Below are positions 21,167 through 28,837 of a stretch of 33,669 bases of DNA, in pieces. Position 1 is the stretch's first letter; each line of letters begins with the position of its first letter. The notes beneath the pieces were generated by a model. It did no database searches. It was not told the DNA's origin and worked only from the letters and a program-made list of their open reading frames with translations. The stretch is from assembly GCA_007126035.1 (NCBI GenBank), contig SLCC01000053.1:1-33669 (forward strand), in the 5' to 3' direction. The DNA comes from Gemmatimonadota bacterium (GTDB lineage: Bacteria > Gemmatimonadota > Gemmatimonadetes > Longimicrobiales > RSA9). The translations under genes and the position numbers were made by a program.

Positions 21167-23026
21167 ATGGCGACAACGCTGGGCAAGTTACTGGTGGAGA
21201 GAGGAGTGGCCTCGGAGAGTCAGGTCGAGGCCGCTCTCGAGGAGCAGCGCGATACCCGGGAGCGGCTTGGCATCATCCTGATCCGTCGCGGCGCGGACGC
21301 AGAGGGAGTGGCCCGGGCCCTTGCCCACCAGCTGCGCCTGGACTACGCGCCGCCACCCTTGAGGCCCGAGGCCAGCGCGCTCGAGCTGTTGCCTCGCCAG
21401 CTGGCGGCGCGGCTGCGACTCGTGCCGCTGACCGTTACCCAGCGCACCCTGCGGGTGGCCATGGCCGACCCGCTGGATGCCAGTGCCATCGACGACCTCC
21501 AATTCCGTACGGGCCGGCGGGCGGAGCCGGTGGTGGCCAGCGCGGTCGCTATCTCCAGGGCCCAGACCGAAGCCTATGGAGACGAGGCGGCACGCAGGGT
21601 CATCAGCCGCCTGGCCCATGCGCCGCAGGCGCTCAACGGCGAGGGTCGGGATGAGGAGACGGACGTATTGCGCCACGCGTCTGAAGCGCCGCCCATCGTC
21701 GCCGCCGTGGACCTGATGCTGGAGCGGGCGGTGGCTTCGGGTGCCAGCGACGTGCATGTGGAGCCATCAGCCACCGTCGTCGCCGTACGGGCACGGGTGG
21801 ACGGGGTGCTCAGATCCATTCTCGAGCTGCCTGCCGCAACCGCGGCGGCGGTGACGTCCCGGATCAAGATCATGGCCGGGATGGACATCGCCGTGAAGCG
21901 CCGTCCCCAGGACGGTCGGAGCGCCGTGACTGCGGCGGGCCGGCGGGTCGAGCTCCGCATCAGCACCCTGCCCGCCGTGGACGGCGAGAAGGTGGTGATC
22001 CGGATTCTCGACCTGGCGGAACGTCGGCCATCCCTGGCTACGCTGGGACTCGGGCCGCGGCTGGTGGTGGAGCTGGAGTCTGCTCTGGACCGGGAGCATG
22101 GGCTGTTCCTGGTCACCGGCCCCACAGGGAGCGGCAAGACCACCACCCTCTACGCCGTGCTCGAGTCACGGGACAGGGTCGGCCGGAACGTGCTGACGCT
22201 GGAGGACCCGGTCGAGTCCCGGCTCGACGGGCTGACCCAGGTCCACGTCCAGCCCCGGGCGGGGCTCACCTTCGCTGCCGCACTCCGCTCCGTCCTGCGG
22301 CAGGACCCGGACACCATCATGGTGGGCGAGATGCGGGACCGTGAGACGGCCGAGATCGGGTTGGCCGCGGCCCTGACCGGCCACCTGGTCCTGTCCACCC
22401 TTCACACTATCGACGCACCCGGAGCGGTGTCCCGGCTGGTGGAGATGGGTGCGCCCCGCTACCTGGTGGCTGGTGGCCTGGTGGGCGTGCTGGCCCAGCG
22501 GCTGGTGCGCCGGCTGTGTCCGGACTGCCGCACGGTGATCCCGGCGGGCCACTACGACCTCCACAGTCTGGGTCTCCCGACACCCACGCACCTGCCCAGG
22601 GCCGTCGGCTGCGATCGCTGCGGGGGCACGGGCTACCGGGGCCGGGTCGGGGTGTTCGAGCTCCTGCGGGTGGACGCCGCCATCCGGGAGCTGATCCTGG
22701 AAGGTGCCCCGGCGGACGCTGTGAGGGAGGCGGCCGCCGGGGCCGGTATGGTGCCGTTACCGGTGGACGCCTGGGCGAAGGTCGAGGCCGGTGTCACCAC
22801 ACTGGACGAGGTCCGCCCCTTCCTGGCCCTGCTGGCGGACGCGGCAGCAGCCTGCCGTTGCTGTGGAGCCGCCCTCGGACGGGGGCACCTTTTCTGTCCT
22901 CTCTGCGGCGGGGCCGTGGCCCGCCGCTGTCGTTGCGGCGTGGCGGCGGGTCCCCACTGGCGGTTCTGCGGCGGTTGCGGGCTCCACCTGTCAGCGGTCG
23001 AACGCGTCGGAGATCTGTCGGAGTAG
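21167..23026 (+). CDS. GspE/PilB-type secretion ATPase with C-terminal double zinc ribbon
   Basis: The 619-residue product has an N-terminal MshEN-like region (about 1-60) with two motif copies, LGKLLVERGVASESQVEAALEEQ and RLGIILIRRGADAEGVARALAHQ, which in this family can bind cyclic di-GMP. The T2SSE ATPase follows: SDVHVEP, VKRRPQDGR, Walker A GPTGSGKTT (318-326), Asp box LTLEDPVE, Walker B region DPDTIMVGEMRD and LSTLHT. The family's tetracysteine zinc site is C451/C454 and C482/C485. The unusual part is residues about 563-604, which add C563/C566, C577/C580, C588/C590 and C601/C604, a double zinc ribbon. No pilin, PilC, PilM or secretin gene is near, so partners are elsewhere. ATG 21167 is chosen; GTG 21161 is an alternative. 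Confidence 0.92.
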   Translation: MATTLGKLLVERGVASESQVEAALEEQRDTRERLGIILIRRGADAEGVARALAHQLRLDYAPPPLRPEASALELLPRQLAARLRLVPLTVTQRTLRVAMADPLDASAIDDLQFRTGRRAEPVVASAVAISRAQTEAYGDEAARRVISRLAHAPQALNGEGRDEETDVLRHASEAPPIVAAVDLMLERAVASGASDVHVEPSATVVAVRARVDGVLRSILELPAATAAAVTSRIKIMAGMDIAVKRRPQDGRSAVTAAGRRVELRISTLPAVDGEKVVIRILDLAERRPSLATLGLGPRLVVELESALDREHGLFLVTGPTGSGKTTTLYAVLESRDRVGRNVLTLEDPVESRLDGLTQVHVQPRAGLTFAAALRSVLRQDPDTIMVGEMRDRETAEIGLAAALTGHLVLSTLHTIDAPGAVSRLVEMGAPRYLVAGGLVGVLAQRLVRRLCPDCRTVIPAGHYDLHSLGLPTPTHLPRAVGCDRCGGTGYRGRVGVFELLRVDAAIRELILEGAPADAVREAAAGAGMVPLPVDAWAKVEAGVTTLDEVRPFLALLADAAAACRCCGAALGRGHLFCPLCGGAVARRCRCGVAAGPHWRFCGGCGLHLSAVERVGDLSE

Positions 23027-23707
23027 CCGGTCCACCGCGCTCCGGCTCGACGGGAAGAGGTAGCGGTCGGCGACCCGGTTCAGGGCTACCCGCAGCTCGG
23101 GGAACGCATCGGCAGCGCTCCTCAACAGTCCGTCCAGCCCGTGGTCGGCGGCGGTCGGAGTGTCGGCAGCGAGCCGGTAGCCGGTGGCTCCCATTTCCTC
23201 GAAATAGCCGATGCCAGGGGCGCCCTTCCGATGTACCCTGGCAGTCACGTAATCGGGGAATATCCCTGTGAGCCAGAGCGCGTAGTTGCCCAGGTGGGCC
23301 CGGAGCAGGAACTGGCGCCGGCCGTCCGGCCCGTCCATGGCCGCCACCAGGTCCACCAGGTAGAGGAACCGACCCTCCTCCGCCGGGTCCGCCCGGAACG
23401 CCCGGTCCTCCTGGCCGAACTCGATCAGCAACGACGCGATGTAGTCGGCCAGCGCCCGGTCGTCGACCCCGCTCTCGAGCAGCGCGTGGCGCACGAGCAG
23501 GTAGAAGACCAGCGATGATGGCGCGTTGTGGTCAGTGGTCAGCACAGCGTTCAGCGTGCGCGGATCGTCCAGTAGGGAGTCCATGCCCTCGACCCTGAGC
23601 CGATCTGCTACACGCGCGGCCGCGCCCTCGTCGCCTCCCGCCACGAGGCGGACGACCACGGTGGCCTCGGCGCGGCCGAACGCGGATCGTACGTTCGGCA
23701 GAATCAC
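22991..23707 (-). CDS. Conserved-looking protein of unknown function
   Basis: I recognise no family. The 238-residue product is soluble, mostly helical and acidic, without signal peptide or membrane segment. Notable stretches are LTTDHNAPSSLVFYLLVRHALLESGVDDRALADYIASLLIEFG, FLYLVDLVAAMDGPDGRRQFLLRAHLGNYALWLTGIFPDYV and KGAPGIGYFEEMGATGYRLAADTP. The pattern of regular helices suggests an all-alpha domain. The start is GTG at 23705-23707 with a strong GGAGG six bases upstream, which supports it as a real gene. The 3' end overlaps the convergent GspE-like gene by 36 bp, in the part coding for that protein's zinc ribbon. Upstream it is divergent from the sensor kinase gene by about 100 bp. Confidence 0.8.
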   Translation of the reverse strand: MILPNVRSAFGRAEATVVVRLVAGGDEGAAARVADRLRVEGMDSLLDDPRTLNAVLTTDHNAPSSLVFYLLVRHALLESGVDDRALADYIASLLIEFGQEDRAFRADPAEEGRFLYLVDLVAAMDGPDGRRQFLLRAHLGNYALWLTGIFPDYVTARVHRKGAPGIGYFEEMGATGYRLAADTPTAADHGLDGLLRSAADAFPELRVALNRVADRYLFPSSRSAVDRLLRQISDAFDR

Positions 23708-23808
23708 CCGCTCCTCCTTCCTCAGCCGTCGACTTGATGCAACCCCTTGCCGGATCTACGTTCTGCTATGGCCGGAACCGTGCCGGCTCCGCCGACCAGA
23801 GGCCGAAC

Positions 23809-25113
23809 GTGTCGAATCAATCCGTCGCAGCGCCGGATCCGCCATCGCCCCGGGAACGCACTCTGGAGCGACGCCTCTTCGGCTGGATCCTGGCGCTCAC
23901 CCTGCTCCCGGCCCTGGTCCTGCTCATCGCCGGTGGCTGGTCCGTGGCCACCTCCCTCAGCCTCGTAGGAGCGCTCGGGCCGTGGGAGGAAGTGGCCGAG
24001 TCGGGGCGGACGGTGGTGGAGCTGGCGAGCCCCATCGCAGACCCCGAACTGGCGGACGCCTTGGCAGTACACCGGGCTCAGCTCTCTGCCTCTCTTACAC
24101 AGGCCCGGCGCTGGGCGTTCCTGGGCGAGCGACTCCAGCAGGCCCTGCCCTGGCTGGTCCTTCTCGTCGGCCTGGTCCTGGTCTGCCTGGCCGCCGCCGC
24201 CAGCCGCCAGCTGGCCCGGCAGCTGGCCCGGCCCATCAACCAGCTCGTCGTCCTCGCCGAGCACCTGGGCCATGGCGAGCCCCTGCCCCTAGCCTCCACC
24301 GGCTCCGTCAAGGAGGTCAGGGTGCTGGACACCGCCCTCAGAGACGCCGCGGACCGCCTGGCGGAGGCGCAGCGGCGGGCCGTGGCCGCTGCGCGCCTGC
24401 GCGTCTGGGGCGAGATGGCGCGGCGGGTCGCCCACGAGATGAAGAATCCCTTGACCCCCCTCCGGCTGGCTGCCCACCGCCTGGCCCGCACAGCGGCTAC
24501 CAGCCCCGACCAGTCCGGCGAAGGCGCACCGGTGGCGGAGGTGGTAGCGGTGATCGACCAGGAGGTGCGCAGGCTGGAGGACCTGGCCGCCCAGTTCAGC
24601 GCCCTGGGCAGGCCGCCCGAGGGGCCGCCCACCGAAGTCGACGTGGGGGAACTGCTCCGGGCGCTGGTCGACGTGGACCTGCCACCAGACCTCAGCATCG
24701 ACCTGGACATCGACGACGACCTCCCGCCGGCGCTCGGCCGCTACGACGGCCTGCTGCGCGCCTTCCGCAACCTCGTCCGTAACGCCGTCGAGGCCATGGA
24801 AGGCATGCCGGACCCCCGCCTGCGCCTGACCGCCAGGCAGGCGACGGACCCCGACGGGGGCGGCCGCTGTATTGAAGTCCAGATCAGCGACAGCGGACTT
24901 GGACTGCCCTCGGGCATGGAGGACCGGGTCTTCGAGCCGGACTTCACCACCAAGACCCGGGGCACCGGCCTGGGCCTTGCCCTGGTGCGGCAGGCGGTGG
25001 AAGCGGATGGCGGGAGCATAACGGCGGCCAACCAGAACGGTGGGGCCGAGTTCCGCATTCGGATCCCCGCGGTGGATGACGCCGCAACCGACCGGACCGA
25101 GGAGAGAGAATGA
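23809..25113 (+). CDS. NtrY-like membrane sensor histidine kinase
   Basis: The product has 434 residues. Membrane helices at about 24-47 and 113-132 flank a short periplasmic loop of about 65 residues. A HAMP-like stretch (RPINQLVVLAEHLGHGE) follows. The dimerisation/phosphoacceptor motif RRVAHEMKNPLTPLRL carries H209; the HEMKNPLTP form is typical of NtrY/NtrB-type kinases that partner sigma-54 regulators. The ATPase domain has NLVRNAVEAM (N box), SDSGLGLPSG (G1), FEPDFTTK (F box) and GTGLGLALVRQ (G2). I chose GTG 23809 with AGAGG six bases upstream; the frame is open to 23734 but without a ribosome site. The stop overlaps the lipoprotein start (ATGA). It should phosphorylate the regulator two genes downstream. 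Confidence 0.92.
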   Translation: MSNQSVAAPDPPSPRERTLERRLFGWILALTLLPALVLLIAGGWSVATSLSLVGALGPWEEVAESGRTVVELASPIADPELADALAVHRAQLSASLTQARRWAFLGERLQQALPWLVLLVGLVLVCLAAAASRQLARQLARPINQLVVLAEHLGHGEPLPLASTGSVKEVRVLDTALRDAADRLAEAQRRAVAAARLRVWGEMARRVAHEMKNPLTPLRLAAHRLARTAATSPDQSGEGAPVAEVVAVIDQEVRRLEDLAAQFSALGRPPEGPPTEVDVGELLRALVDVDLPPDLSIDLDIDDDLPPALGRYDGLLRAFRNLVRNAVEAMEGMPDPRLRLTARQATDPDGGGRCIEVQISDSGLGLPSGMEDRVFEPDFTTKTRGTGLGLALVRQAVEADGGSITAANQNGGAEFRIRIPAVDDAATDRTEERE

Positions 25114-25829
25114 GACGCTTGATATGGGGTGTCGCGATTGTTGGGCTGGTGGGTTGCGCACCCACCATGGGCGAGCCCCGACCCACCAACCTGCCGACCG
25201 TGGTCCTGCGAGCGACCGCGGAGACGCCTGCCAGCGCGGCGGCCGACGCGCTGGCCGAGGTTAACCCGAGAGTGGCCCTCGTGCTCGGCCCCGCCGAGCC
25301 CGACTGGTTCGACAGCGTAGCCGCCGCAGCCGGCCTCCGGCCGACCACGGAGCCGGGGATCATCGATTCCGGACTAGGCGTAGCGTTTCTGGGTCTGGAG
25401 GCCGTGGGAGACACCACAATCCAACTCGAGTACGACGGCGGAAGCTTCACCCTTCACGACGCCCTCTACGATCTCGGCCGGCGCCGCCTGCTGGACCTGC
25501 TGGCGTTCCGCGTCGAGACGCCGGCCCAGGCGCGACCGCTCCTGACCGCCCTTGCCGAATACGTGGCCACCGACGTGCCGCCCGGCGCCGCGCTGGTCAT
25601 GGCCGTTGCGGTGCCGTCGCCGGCCGTCGGGGACAGCGTGGCAAGGCTCCTGGCACCCATGTACGACGGCGCCGGCCGCTGCGGCGCGACGCAGGACGCG
25701 GTGGCCGCCTCCGAAGTGCTACTCTTCTTCGGCCCCGGCGCCAGGATCTACTGTCGGTCCGCCAGCGCGCGACCCACGCCTGGCGGCGACCGGATCGCGG
25801 CAGAGCTGGTCGTGGGCCGCAGACCCTGA
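25110..25829 (+). CDS. Small lipoprotein between kinase and regulator, unknown function
   Basis: The product has 239 residues. The N-terminus RRLIWGVAIVGLVGC ends in a good lipobox (L-V-G-C, Cys 16), so it is likely a lipid-anchored envelope protein. The mature part alternates short strands and helices (VALVLGPAEPDWFDSVAAAAGL, LGVAFLGLEAVGDTTIQLEYDGG, GAALVMAVAVPSPAVGDSVARLLAPMYDGAGRCG, EVLLFFGPGARIYCRSA) and has two Cys late in the sequence. I recognise no family. Its start codon overlaps the kinase stop (ATGA) and the regulator gene begins six bases after its stop. This places it inside the two-component operon, where it could be the periplasmic sensor or brake for the kinase. That role is inference from position only. 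Confidence 0.85.
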   Translation: MRRLIWGVAIVGLVGCAPTMGEPRPTNLPTVVLRATAETPASAAADALAEVNPRVALVLGPAEPDWFDSVAAAAGLRPTTEPGIIDSGLGVAFLGLEAVGDTTIQLEYDGGSFTLHDALYDLGRRRLLDLLAFRVETPAQARPLLTALAEYVATDVPPGAALVMAVAVPSPAVGDSVARLLAPMYDGAGRCGATQDAVAASEVLLFFGPGARIYCRSASARPTPGGDRIAAELVVGRRP

Positions 25830-25835
25830 CGCGCC

Positions 25836-27152
25836 ATGCCATCCGTCCTGATCGTCGACGACGAGATCAACATCCGCAGGATGCTACGCGGCTTCTTGGA
25901 GGGCGAGGGATTCCGTGTGACGGAGGCGGAGGACGGTGGGGCCGGGGTGGAGAAGGCGGTGACCGAGGACCCGGACGTGGTGCTCCTGGACCTGGCCATG
26001 CCCAGGCTCGACGGGCTCACAGCCCTGGAGCGGCTCGTAGAAAGGAAGCCGCGTCTGCCCGTGGTCATGATGAGCGGTCGGGCTACACTCCAGGACGCCG
26101 TGTCCGCTACGCGGCTCGGCGCATTCCAGTTCCTCGAGAAGCCGCTGACGCCCGAGGCCGTCCTGTCCACGGTCAACGGTGCCGTGGAGCTCCGGCGGGC
26201 CCTGGAGCAGTCGGAGCCCCCGGTGACCACCGCCGACATCGTTGGCAGCAGCCAGGCGATGGAGCGGGTCCGCCAGCGCATCGCCCAGGCCGCGCCCACC
26301 GAGGCGCGGGTCCTCATCACCGGAGAGAGCGGGACCGGTAAGGAGCTGGTCGCCGCCGCCATCCACCATATGTCCCGCCGGGCAAGGGGGCCGCTGGTCA
26401 GGGTCAACAGCGCGGCCATACCACGGGAGCTCATCGAGTCCGAGATGTTCGGGCACGAGCGAGGCGCGTTCACCGGTGCCATCAGCCGTCGTCGCGGTCG
26501 GTTCGAGCAGGCGGACGGCGGGACACTGTTCCTCGATGAGGTGGCGGACCTGAGCCCGGACGCCCAGGCAAAGCTGCTCCGCGCCCTCGAGACCGGCCAG
26601 ATCCAGCGGGTGGGCGGGACCAGGGCCCTGGCGGTGGACGTGAGGGTGGTGGCGGCGACGAACGCCGACCTCCGCGCCGCCACCGAGGCGAGCAGGTTCC
26701 GCGAAGACCTCTTCTACCGGCTCAACGTGCTGCCCATCCAGGTGCCGCCCCTGCGGAGCCGGCCCGAGGACATACCCGAGCTCGTCGCGCACCTGATGGA
26801 GCGTCTCCGCCTGCGGCAGGGTATGAAACCACCAGAGGTCGGCCGCGACGGGGTAGCCGCCATGACGCGGTACCACTGGCCCGGCAACGTGCGGGAGCTG
26901 GCCAACGTGTGCGAGCGGCTCGCCATACTCCACGCCCGGGGCCACGTCGGTGAGGACCAGGTGATGGAGCTGTTGCCCGGGAGCGCCCGTCAGCCACGTT
27001 CCCTGACCGACCAGCTGGACATGTTCGAACGGGGTCGCATCGAAGCGGCCCTGAAAGCCGCCGATGGTAGCGTGGCCGAGGCGGCCAGGGCCCTGGAAAC
27101 GGACCGGGCCAACCTCTATCGACGGATGAGAAGACTGGGGATAACACGGTGA
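25836..27152 (+). CDS. Sigma-54-dependent response regulator (NtrC/NtrX family)
   Basis: The product has 438 residues. The receiver domain (1-120) has the acid pair DDE (8-10), phosphoacceptor D52 in [10 protein letters not shown]79 and K101. The AAA+ domain has Walker A GESGTGKE (162-169), the sigma-54 contact loop GAFTGA (209-214), Walker B GGTLFLDE (227-234), the [10 protein letters not shown] sensor-I region and [10 protein letters not shown] Fis-type helix-turn-helix closes the protein (about 412-437: [26 protein letters not shown]). It would activate sigma-54 promoters when phosphorylated by the kinase two genes upstream. I found no clean TGGCAC-N5-TTGC sigma-54 site in the spacers of this window, so its targets are probably elsewhere. 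The stop overlaps the next start (GTGA). Confidence 0.96.
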
Positions 27153-28837
27153 AACGCTTCCTTTTCGGCCTGCTCCTCCTCCCCGTCGCCTACCTGCCGG
27201 TGACGGCCCAGGAGATGCGCTCGCTCACGCCCGAGGCCGCCGCGGCCATCATGGACTTCTACAACGACCCGGCCACCATTCGTGTCCGGGGCGAGACCAG
27301 GATCCCTGATGGCAGCCTCGTCGCCGGGAACCTGGCATCCCTGGGCGGGCCACTGGTGGTGGCAGGTACTGTCCGGGGCGATGTGGTGGTCATCAACGGA
27401 GACCTCCAACTCCTGCCCGCCGGCCGGATCGAGGGCACGACCCGCGTGGTGGGCGGCCGCGTCGAGCACTCACCGCCTGCCTCGGCCGAGGGCGTGGTCG
27501 TATACTACGAGAACCTTCGTTTCCGACGTGAGGGCGACCTGATGGTGGCGCCTGTTCCCGAGTCGCACCCCTGGGCCGCGGCCGGGCGACCCACCCGGTT
27601 CGGTCGATTCGACCTGACGGGTGGCATCCACGGCTCGTACAATCGGGCGGAGGGTCTGCCGATCATGCTCGGCCCCCGCCTCGAGTTCGGCCGGTCCAAT
27701 CCCACCGCGGTCAACGGGCGACTCATCTACCAGACGCGCAAGGGCCTGCGCTTCCACCCGAACGAGCTGGGCTACGACCTGCGACTCGAGCAGTACATGG
27801 GCGGTGGGCGCGGAATGCTCATCGGGGTGGGCGCCCACAACGTGGTCGACCCCATCGAGGACGCCGGCCTCTCGGACACCGAGAACTCCCTCGCCACCTT
27901 CGTCTTCCACGAGGACCACCGCGACCATTACGAACGAGAGGGCTGGAGCGCCTACCTGCGGTTCATCGGCACCACCACGCCCTATGACGCTCGCATCGAG
28001 TACCGGGACGAGACGCACCGGCCCATACAGCCTGGTGCACCCTGGGCCCTGCTCAGGAACGACACCGACTGGAGAGCACAGCCCCACGCCGCCCGCGGCA
28101 CGCTACGATCTGTGACAGGATCATTCCAATGGGACGGCCGGGACAACCCCGTGGACCCCGCCGCCGGTTGGCTGGTGACGGTCGAGGTCGAGCAGGGACT
28201 CGGCGGTAGCTTGCGCTATCCTGCCGCGCCCGAGCCCACCAGCGGGGATCACCTGCCGGTGGTGGCAGGGGTCAGCACCAGCGCCGACTACGCCGACTCG
28301 GACTTCACCTTCGCGTCCGTGGACGCCCGCAGGTACCTCCGGGTCGGGCCTCGCAGCCGACTGGCATTCCGGGTCCGCGCGGCCGGTGCCCCGGACATGG
28401 GTGCCCTCCCGGTCCAGCGACAGCTCACACTGGGCGGCGAAGGGACACTGCCAGGGTTCAACCGGTTCGCTTTCGACTGCGGCGCACGCAGCGACGGCAC
28501 TCGCAGCGACGGCTTCTATCCGTACTACGGTTGCGACCGCCTGGTGCTGTTGCAGGGCGAGTACCGATTCGCTCTCCTCACCGACACCGGCATATCTCGA
28601 CGACTCGGACTGGACTTCGACCTCTTCGCCACCCCCGAGCTGGTGCTCTTTGCCAACGCCGGCCGGGCCTGGATCGAGGCCCGGGCGCTGGCAGGCCGCA
28701 CGGCTGTGGGACCGCGCTACCTCCGCGGAGACGCCGGTGTGGGACTGCGCATGGGTCGGATCGGGATCTATCTTGCGGCGCCCGTCACGAGCGGTGGCTC
28801 CACCAACTTCTTCATCAGGTTGGGGCCAAGGATCTGA
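27149..28837 (+). CDS. Outer-membrane barrel protein with N-terminal bactofilin-like strand repeat and Omp85-like C-terminus
   Basis: The product has 562 residues. A signal peptide (1-21, ending VTAQ) is followed by a segment of regular short strands (about 44-107: [46 protein letters not shown]) that looks like a right-handed beta-helix of the bactofilin/polymer-forming type. From about 150 the protein is a beta-barrel resembling the Omp85 surface-antigen domain, with [15 protein letters not shown] in place of the usual GG-x-x-x-RGY segment, and a final strand FFIRLGPRI. No POTRA domains are visible. A Cys-flanked loop near residues 445-465 holds a five-residue repeat, [10 protein letters not shown]. 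The GTG start overlaps the regulator stop (GTGA), so an outer-membrane protein is directly coupled to a transcription regulator. Confidence 0.82.

Follow-up and report, generated by a model that had tools for sequence, protein, structure and literature searches.

The ATPase gene and its tail

The stretch of DNA analysed here (the window, 33,669 nucleotides of a Gemmatimonadota genome) carries at positions 21167..23026 (+) a gene that translates from ATG to stop as a protein of 619 aa, hereafter the tailed ATPase. Pfam assigned two domains to it, T2SSE (E 4.4e-115) and MshEN (E 3.2e-18). The T2SSE motor domain covers residues 173-549 (21683..22813, +) and scored 384.7 bits against a cut-off of 24.9 (PF00437), with its nucleotide-binding residues invariant; K324, E346, E388, H406 and H413 did not vary in an alignment of 44 sequences (alignment A1). 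Within this domain we take GPTGSGKT to be the Walker A motif, and the Walker B region and conserved histidine were named on the same presumption. Residues 5-55 (21179..21331, +) form a predicted N-terminal MshE-type c-di-GMP-binding motif, which reached 44.7 bits with model NF053729 (cut-off 38). The core of a full-length structural model had pLDDT values mostly above 90, and the nearest solved folds were Thermus PilF (5oiu), Vibrio GspE and Geobacter PilB (5tsh).

Two sets of cysteines were found in the protein. C451/C454 and C482/C485 (22517..22621, +) had been described in a first-pass annotation as the tetracysteine site of the family itself, and this reading holds, as the four residues stand at these positions in the translation, are kept in 65 of 66 aligned ATPases and are invariant in alignment A1. 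That annotation had also placed four further cysteine pairs at residues 563-604, in an order expected for two zinc ribbons; coordinates and residue numbers were right, and the ribbon order was borne out by alignment to the Pfam double zinc ribbon model DZR (22853..22978, +). Eight cysteines thus ordered lie within the last 57 residues, in the pattern CxxC, CxxC, CxCG, W-R-x-CxxC, the knuckles being C563/C566, C577/C580, C588/C590 and C601/C604. C565 is an additional cysteine inside the first knuckle, and the third pair is CxC, not CxxC. DZR (PF12773) spans residues 563-605, its whole model length, with 19.1 bits in the whole protein and 24.9 bits for the tail alone, short of the cut-off of 27.3. 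By their order and conservation the eight cysteines are predicted metal ligands in four knuckles. The ribbon block had pLDDT 44-52 in the full-length model (44 rows) and a mean of 67 when the tail was modelled alone (4 rows), a low confidence in both cases, and a PDB search with the tail profile gave weak zinc-ribbon-like matches only (best E 0.0034).

The same annotation had set the protein apart from standard GspE and PilB, and the curated models agree. Its scores lie under the cut-offs of PilB (TIGR02538; 492.7 bits vs 675.65), GspE (TIGR02533; 517.0 bits vs 630.25) and TfpB (NF053534; 429.3 bits vs 850), GspE giving the best bit score of all NCBIfam models. The other assembly ATPase of the same organism passed the PilB model with 731.7 bits.

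The coding end overlaps a convergent gene at 22991..23707 (-), as had been reported before; the overlap is 36 nt, and the partner, a conserved open reading frame with no Pfam match, ends tail-to-tail inside the ATPase gene and recurs in 9 of the 23 regions compared. It is followed by genes for a histidine kinase, a conserved small protein and a sigma-54 response regulator (23734..27152, +), assigned by Pfam and neighbourhood comparison. Downstream of this NtrC-like regulator, positions 27149-28837 (+) encode an Omp85-type barrel together with a weak, sub-threshold bactofilin-like stretch, a gene present in 8 of the 23 regions. Recurring neighbours in general, read by eye, were housekeeping and two-component genes. 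We regard the convergent gene and the histidine kinase/regulator group as context, with no shown link to the tailed ATPase. Blastp over the window and 22 related regions, 4 to 20 kb long, turned up no further protein like PilB, PilT or PilC.

Conservation and distribution of the tail

The alignment of 66 ATPases comprised 62 Gemmatimonadota orthologues, two proteins from other phyla (L035 and L036), both of them tailed, and the rows of genomes G095 and G098, which score better against PilB and were excluded as orthologues. The eight tail cysteines and W598 were present in the same 61 of 66 rows, all eight cysteines were found in 59 of the 62 orthologues, and cysteines and tryptophan alike were invariant in an alignment of 15 tails (alignment A2). 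A frameshift artefact was rejected, as 59 of 62 aligned orthologues have the whole tail in frame; with 61 of 66 rows carrying the eight cysteines, the tail is genuine, being neither such an artefact, nor a product of chance, nor absent from close homologues. The ATPase of G005 has no tail, that of G007 has a decayed one, and a frame change divides the gene in G028, whose tail is read in the neighbouring frame. Four further proteins stood outside the alignment, namely those of G060 (a fragment), G074 (interrupted), and G078 and G002 (pieces that lie at the end of a contig or on a small one); the tail profile matched the first three and not G002. The dN/dS ratio of the tail, computed over 42 codons by a simple counting method, ran from 0.04 to 0.43 for 19 of the 20 closest pairs listed, the remaining pair being unchanged and its ratio undefined; the core gave 0.05-0.19 over the same pairs. 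To judge from these alignments, the ribbon tail is a maintained part of the ATPase, and both the architecture and its conservation are brought out by the comparison.

The genome of the window itself (G000; 3.88 Mb in 218 contigs, a 98% complete draft) and 98 relatives, most of them drafts, were searched with the ATPase protein, and some match was obtained in 90 of the 99. A profile built from the 15 tails of alignment A2 was then run on 298 genomes of the phylum. It gave 64 matches at E 3.7e-22 or better that covered the whole profile, all of them in two families, f1 and f2, of one order. Among the matches listed, a clear gap in E-value separates this set from the weaker ones (E 3e-13 and above), which mostly cover the ribbon part only and lie in shorter open reading frames. 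In a wider search for related loci, of which the best 80 of 196 were taken, the tail was found in L034, L035 (Proteobacteria MAG) and L036 (Acidobacteria MAG), and no tail with at least four cysteines was seen in the other 77 of these best 80. Relatives of the L036 genome were richer in tails, the profile matching 44 of 119, and we refer to these matches as acidobacterial-type. Confinement of the tail to one lineage is ruled out by these 44 genomes. The tail had been introduced as an oddity of a single protein, a view that does not stand beside 59 of 62 Gemmatimonadota orthologues and 44 of 119 relatives of the L036 genome.

We compared 21 acidobacterial-type loci, 20 from the 44 matching genomes plus L036. 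The eight-cysteine pattern, written to allow W, F or Y at the aromatic position, was found in all 21 proteins, and all 21 have W. Four of the proteins were scanned with DZR and passed its cut-off of 27.3 with 31.0-37.3 bits, two of them being receiver fusions. Together with the matches given above, this makes the architecture a widespread one.

The surroundings of these loci are distinctive. Directly downstream of the tailed ATPase and on the same strand lies a J-domain gene in 18 of 21 loci, starting -13 to +75 nt from the ATPase stop. The three loci without it (L227-L229) are ATPase-ribbon-receiver fusions; Pfam recognised the receiver in L227 and L228. For the J-domain gene and for a GGDEF gene nearby, Pfam confirmed the domain in two proteins each, and the GGDEF-gene cluster has members in 16 of 21 loci. 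A 522-aa protein with no Pfam match is encoded just upstream of the tailed ATPase at L212:11321-12886 (-), and its cluster has 7 members in acidobacterial-type loci. Neither pilC nor a separate pilT turned up in these regions. G100, the one acidobacterial-type genome examined for this, also has a pilB-pilT-pilC set, and the tailed ATPase is therefore an additional motor or regulator there. The window and 32 Gemmatimonadota loci yielded no J-domain gene. Separately, two GspE/PilB-type ATPases carrying a C-terminal response-regulator receiver domain and no ribbon were observed at L151:8792-10888 (-) in G036 and at L154:9263-11695 (-) in G009.

A tree built from 82 ATPase cores united the tailed ATPases of Gemmatimonadota in one clade (100/98) that includes the proteins of G005 and G007, so their missing tail is best read as loss. 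The two outgroup tails fell outside that clade in the free search of this tree, and constraining all tailed rows to group with one another improved the tree by 5.7 log units (p-AU 0.66). In a larger tree of 69 rows, with acidobacterial-type proteins added, a branch supported at 96/86 split 34 rows from 35. None of the 34 is known to be tailed, and all of the 35 are tailed except the receiver-fused L151 and L154. These trees are compatible with, and not proof of, the tailed ATPases being one old subfamily in which the tail may have arisen once.

Pilus genes in genomes with the tailed ATPase

In G000 we found one PilC open reading frame with two T2SSF domains (contig C139), adjoining pilB and pilT, and one secretin (C134); no second PilC/GspF platform or secretin was matched in this 98% complete draft. 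The standard pilB holds the place linked to pilT and pilC, and the tailed gene lies on another contig. The tailed ATPase hence has in G000 neither the T2SS platform and secretin of its own that go with a GspE (TIGR02533) nor the linkage to pilT and pilC that goes with a PilB (TIGR02538). The gene order is comEA-like, pilB, pilT, pilC in G000, G032 and G036, and pilB, pilT, pilC in G010; the names sprA, comEA and lptF in pilus loci are presumptive, having been read by eye.

The same 99 genomes, which fall into f1 (12 genomes, the family of the window), f2 (66) and f3 (21), were searched for PilC and PilB. Comparison of the 66 f2 genomes shows that the tail goes with PilC: 50 have both the tailed ATPase and PilC, 4 the ATPase only, 1 PilC only and 11 neither (Fisher p 1.4e-8, in a test that ignores kinship). 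The 5 discordant genomes are G040, G064, G074 and G084, with the ATPase and without PilC, and G095, with PilC alone. It also shows that a standard PilB match is missing in many genomes, as tail and PilC occur without it in 29 of the 66, a number that includes G060 (fragments, and a weak PilC match at E 2e-8) and G028 (the split gene). The earlier remark that no pilus genes are near is correct for the locus and misleading for the genome, since in f2 the tail tracks PilC genome-wide and in some genomes no other full-length assembly-type ATPase was found. No such tracking was seen in the 12 genomes of f1, where 7 have both, 2 have the ATPase without a PilC match (G008 and G009), and 3 have PilC without an intact tailed protein, namely G002 (an N-terminal piece running off its contig), G005 and G007. 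The last two, in which the tail is lost or decayed, keep PilB. In f3 a PilC match was obtained in 21 of 21 genomes, the tailed ATPase in 0 of 21 and standard PilB in 20 of 21.

A secretin was found in all seven tested genomes that have tail and PilC and lack PilB (G012, G016, G018, G022, G034, G072 and G089), and, among the PilB-less tailed genomes without a PilC match, in G008, G009 and G064 and not in G040, G074 and G084. With 7 of 7 and 3 of 6, a secretin is therefore present in 10 of 13 PilB-less tailed genomes tested. Ten of the 11 f2 genomes without tailed ATPase and PilC had no secretin match, and G048 had a weak one (E 3e-11). Genus g25 displays several of these states side by side: G065 and G089 have retained PilC together with the ATPase, both are absent from G071 and G096, G074 combines a broken ATPase gene with absence of PilC, and the ATPase of G040 is intact in a genome with neither PilC nor secretin. 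The gene in G074 (L196:5906-9838) is interrupted by a stretch of other sequence about 3 kb long; neither PilC nor a secretin was matched in this genome, and the gene could perhaps encode a decaying motor left after loss of the pilus. G040 and G084 are the clearest counter-examples to a role in pili, unless they reflect recent losses or assembly gaps.

The case is strongest in four nearly closed genomes, of which G012, G022 and G034 consist of one contig and G072 of two; their sole full-length assembly-type T2SSE protein is the tailed ATPase. The other T2SSE matches over the cut-off there are PilT, a CpaF/VirB11-like ATPase in G012 and two fragments in G022; we take the CpaF/VirB11-like label from reading by eye, and PilT in the relatives was likewise presumed, by eye, from place and profile coverage. 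In G012, G018 and G022 the comEA-like open frame overlaps that of pilT, and the pilB slot is therefore empty. A tblastn search with PilB in the pilus loci of G012, G018, G022, G034, G072 and G081 found no pilB relic, the matches being of PilT type only. Two T2SSF domain matches (one platform) and one secretin were found in each of G012, G018, G022, G034 and G072, and in G012 PilM, PilN, PilO, the secretin and N-methyl pilins lie together. This content of genes suggests that the tailed ATPase is likely the sole extension motor where PilB was lost.

A candidate second class of pilus motor

We consider it reasonably probable that the ribbon-tailed ATPase belongs to an old subfamily of type IV pilus extension motors, which acts alone where PilB has been lost and is probably a second motor in G000. 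Its members would be paralogous, hexameric pilus-assembly ATPases of the order MshEN, T2SSE motor and double zinc ribbon. The hexamer would most likely power the polymerisation of pilin, which it would turn or load at the inner-membrane platform PilC of a type IV pilus encoded elsewhere in the genome. In G000 it would be a second extension motor beside the standard PilB, the single PilC being shared, and in several f2 lineages it would have replaced PilB outright. The N-terminal domain probably senses c-di-GMP and may thereby tune the motor, and the ribbon tail is probably a docking site that brings a regulator or adaptor to the C-terminal side of the motor. We infer that the tail binds zinc, that the core works as a motor and that it uses PilC; that the ribbon docks some additional partner is plausible. 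Overall, the evidence favours the usual pilus machine as the site of action over a different machine.

Other explanations have to be set against this. The tail could be a neutral leftover of a gene fusion without any function, as one might suppose from G005 and G007, where it was lost or decayed while the ATPase was kept, and from the weak DZR score of the protein in the window. We hold this to be very improbable, given that the eight cysteines and the tryptophan are retained in 61 of 66 ATPases and in all 21 acidobacterial-type proteins, that tail dN/dS is well below 1, and that a single old origin fits the ATPase trees. The protein could also drive a separate apparatus, of type II secretion or pseudopilus kind, whose genes are unlinked to it, in line with GspE being its best NCBIfam score (517 bits) and with no pilus gene lying beside it. 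That score is below the cut-off of 630, however, and such an apparatus would call for components that were not matched: G000 has one PilC/GspF open reading frame and one secretin only, G012, G018, G022, G034 and G072 have one platform and one secretin each, and the secretin of G012 sits in the PilM-N-O cluster. We regard this explanation as quite unlikely.

Alternatively, the tailed ATPase may be no polymerisation motor at all and instead regulate pilus or polysaccharide output in response to c-di-GMP, for instance as a signalling or chaperone-linked ATPase. Several observations point that way, namely its c-di-GMP motif, the J-domain and GGDEF neighbours of the acidobacterial-type loci, the receiver fusion in 3 of these 21 loci (confirmed by Pfam in two), its presence as an extra protein beside PilB in G100, and the intact copy in G040 where PilC and secretin matches are missing. 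Against it stand the intact motor residues and the presence of the protein where standard PilB is missing and PilC, PilT and secretin are kept, and we think such a regulatory role unlikely.

PilB is the usual pilus extension motor, and second motors such as TfpB occur in some species, according to passages of two papers (PMC11656802, PMC8213720). The tailed ATPase has MshEN and motor domains and the tetracysteine site in common with PilB (TIGR02538; 5oiu, 5tsh), and is about 40% identical to the PilB of its own genome; unlike PilB it stays below the family cut-off (493 of 676), bears the ribbon and lies outside the pil locus. With GspE (TIGR02533) it shares the motor domain and its best NCBIfam bit score, yet it remains under that cut-off as well (517 of 630), in a genome with no second platform or secretin match. 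The likeness to TfpB of Acinetobacter baylyi (NF053534) is that of a divergent second motor beside PilB, although its score is far below the cut-off (429 of 850). A. baylyi is described as using PilB and TfpB as extension motors, and P. fluorescens A506 as having TfpB alone, in the consulted text of PMC8213720, in whose main text the word 'zinc' does not appear. A passage of the review PMC11656802 mentions the core zinc site and MshEN motifs. Compared with DZR (PF12773), the tail has the eight-cysteine order over the full model length, with the cut-off passed in four acidobacterial-type relatives, but the third knuckle is CxC in Gemmatimonadota proteins and the tail in the window stays under the cut-off. 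We found no description of a ribbon tail on PilB or GspE in open-licence PubMed Central full text.

A precedent for chaperones at pilus motors comes from cyanobacteria. In Nostoc, active pilus motors reportedly work together with a DnaK1/DnaJ3 system, and in a two-hybrid assay Nostoc DnaK1 and PilB interacted, whereas the Synechocystis pair did not in the same assay, according to excerpts of PMC9239167. This is a J-domain/Hsp70 system tied to pilus motors, to be compared with the J-domain neighbour of the acidobacterial-type loci; unlike these, the system has no ribbon tail mentioned in those excerpts of PMC9239167, and in the Gemmatimonadota loci compared no J-domain gene was found. By analogy with Nostoc, a chaperone adaptor may be a reasonable candidate partner of the tail, and we treat the J-domain neighbour as the best lead to that partner. 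On a more far-reaching and rather doubtful view, the ribbon tail would mark a second, ancient class of motor for type IV pilus extension, found at least in Acidobacteriota and Gemmatimonadota, which has displaced PilB in whole lineages; its tail would be a receptor for a J-domain/Hsp70 adaptor, or for other inputs such as receiver domains, and pilus assembly would be gated by chaperones and by c-di-GMP.

A class of motor with a conserved, predicted metal-binding tail recurs in at least two phyla. Four nearly closed genomes keep PilC, PilT and the secretin, with the tailed ATPase as the only full-length assembly-type ATPase found. If the interpretation as an extension motor is true, absence of pilB from an annotation would not imply that pili are absent in these bacteria, and the tail together with its J-domain neighbour would offer a testable handle on why bacteria retain more than one extension motor.
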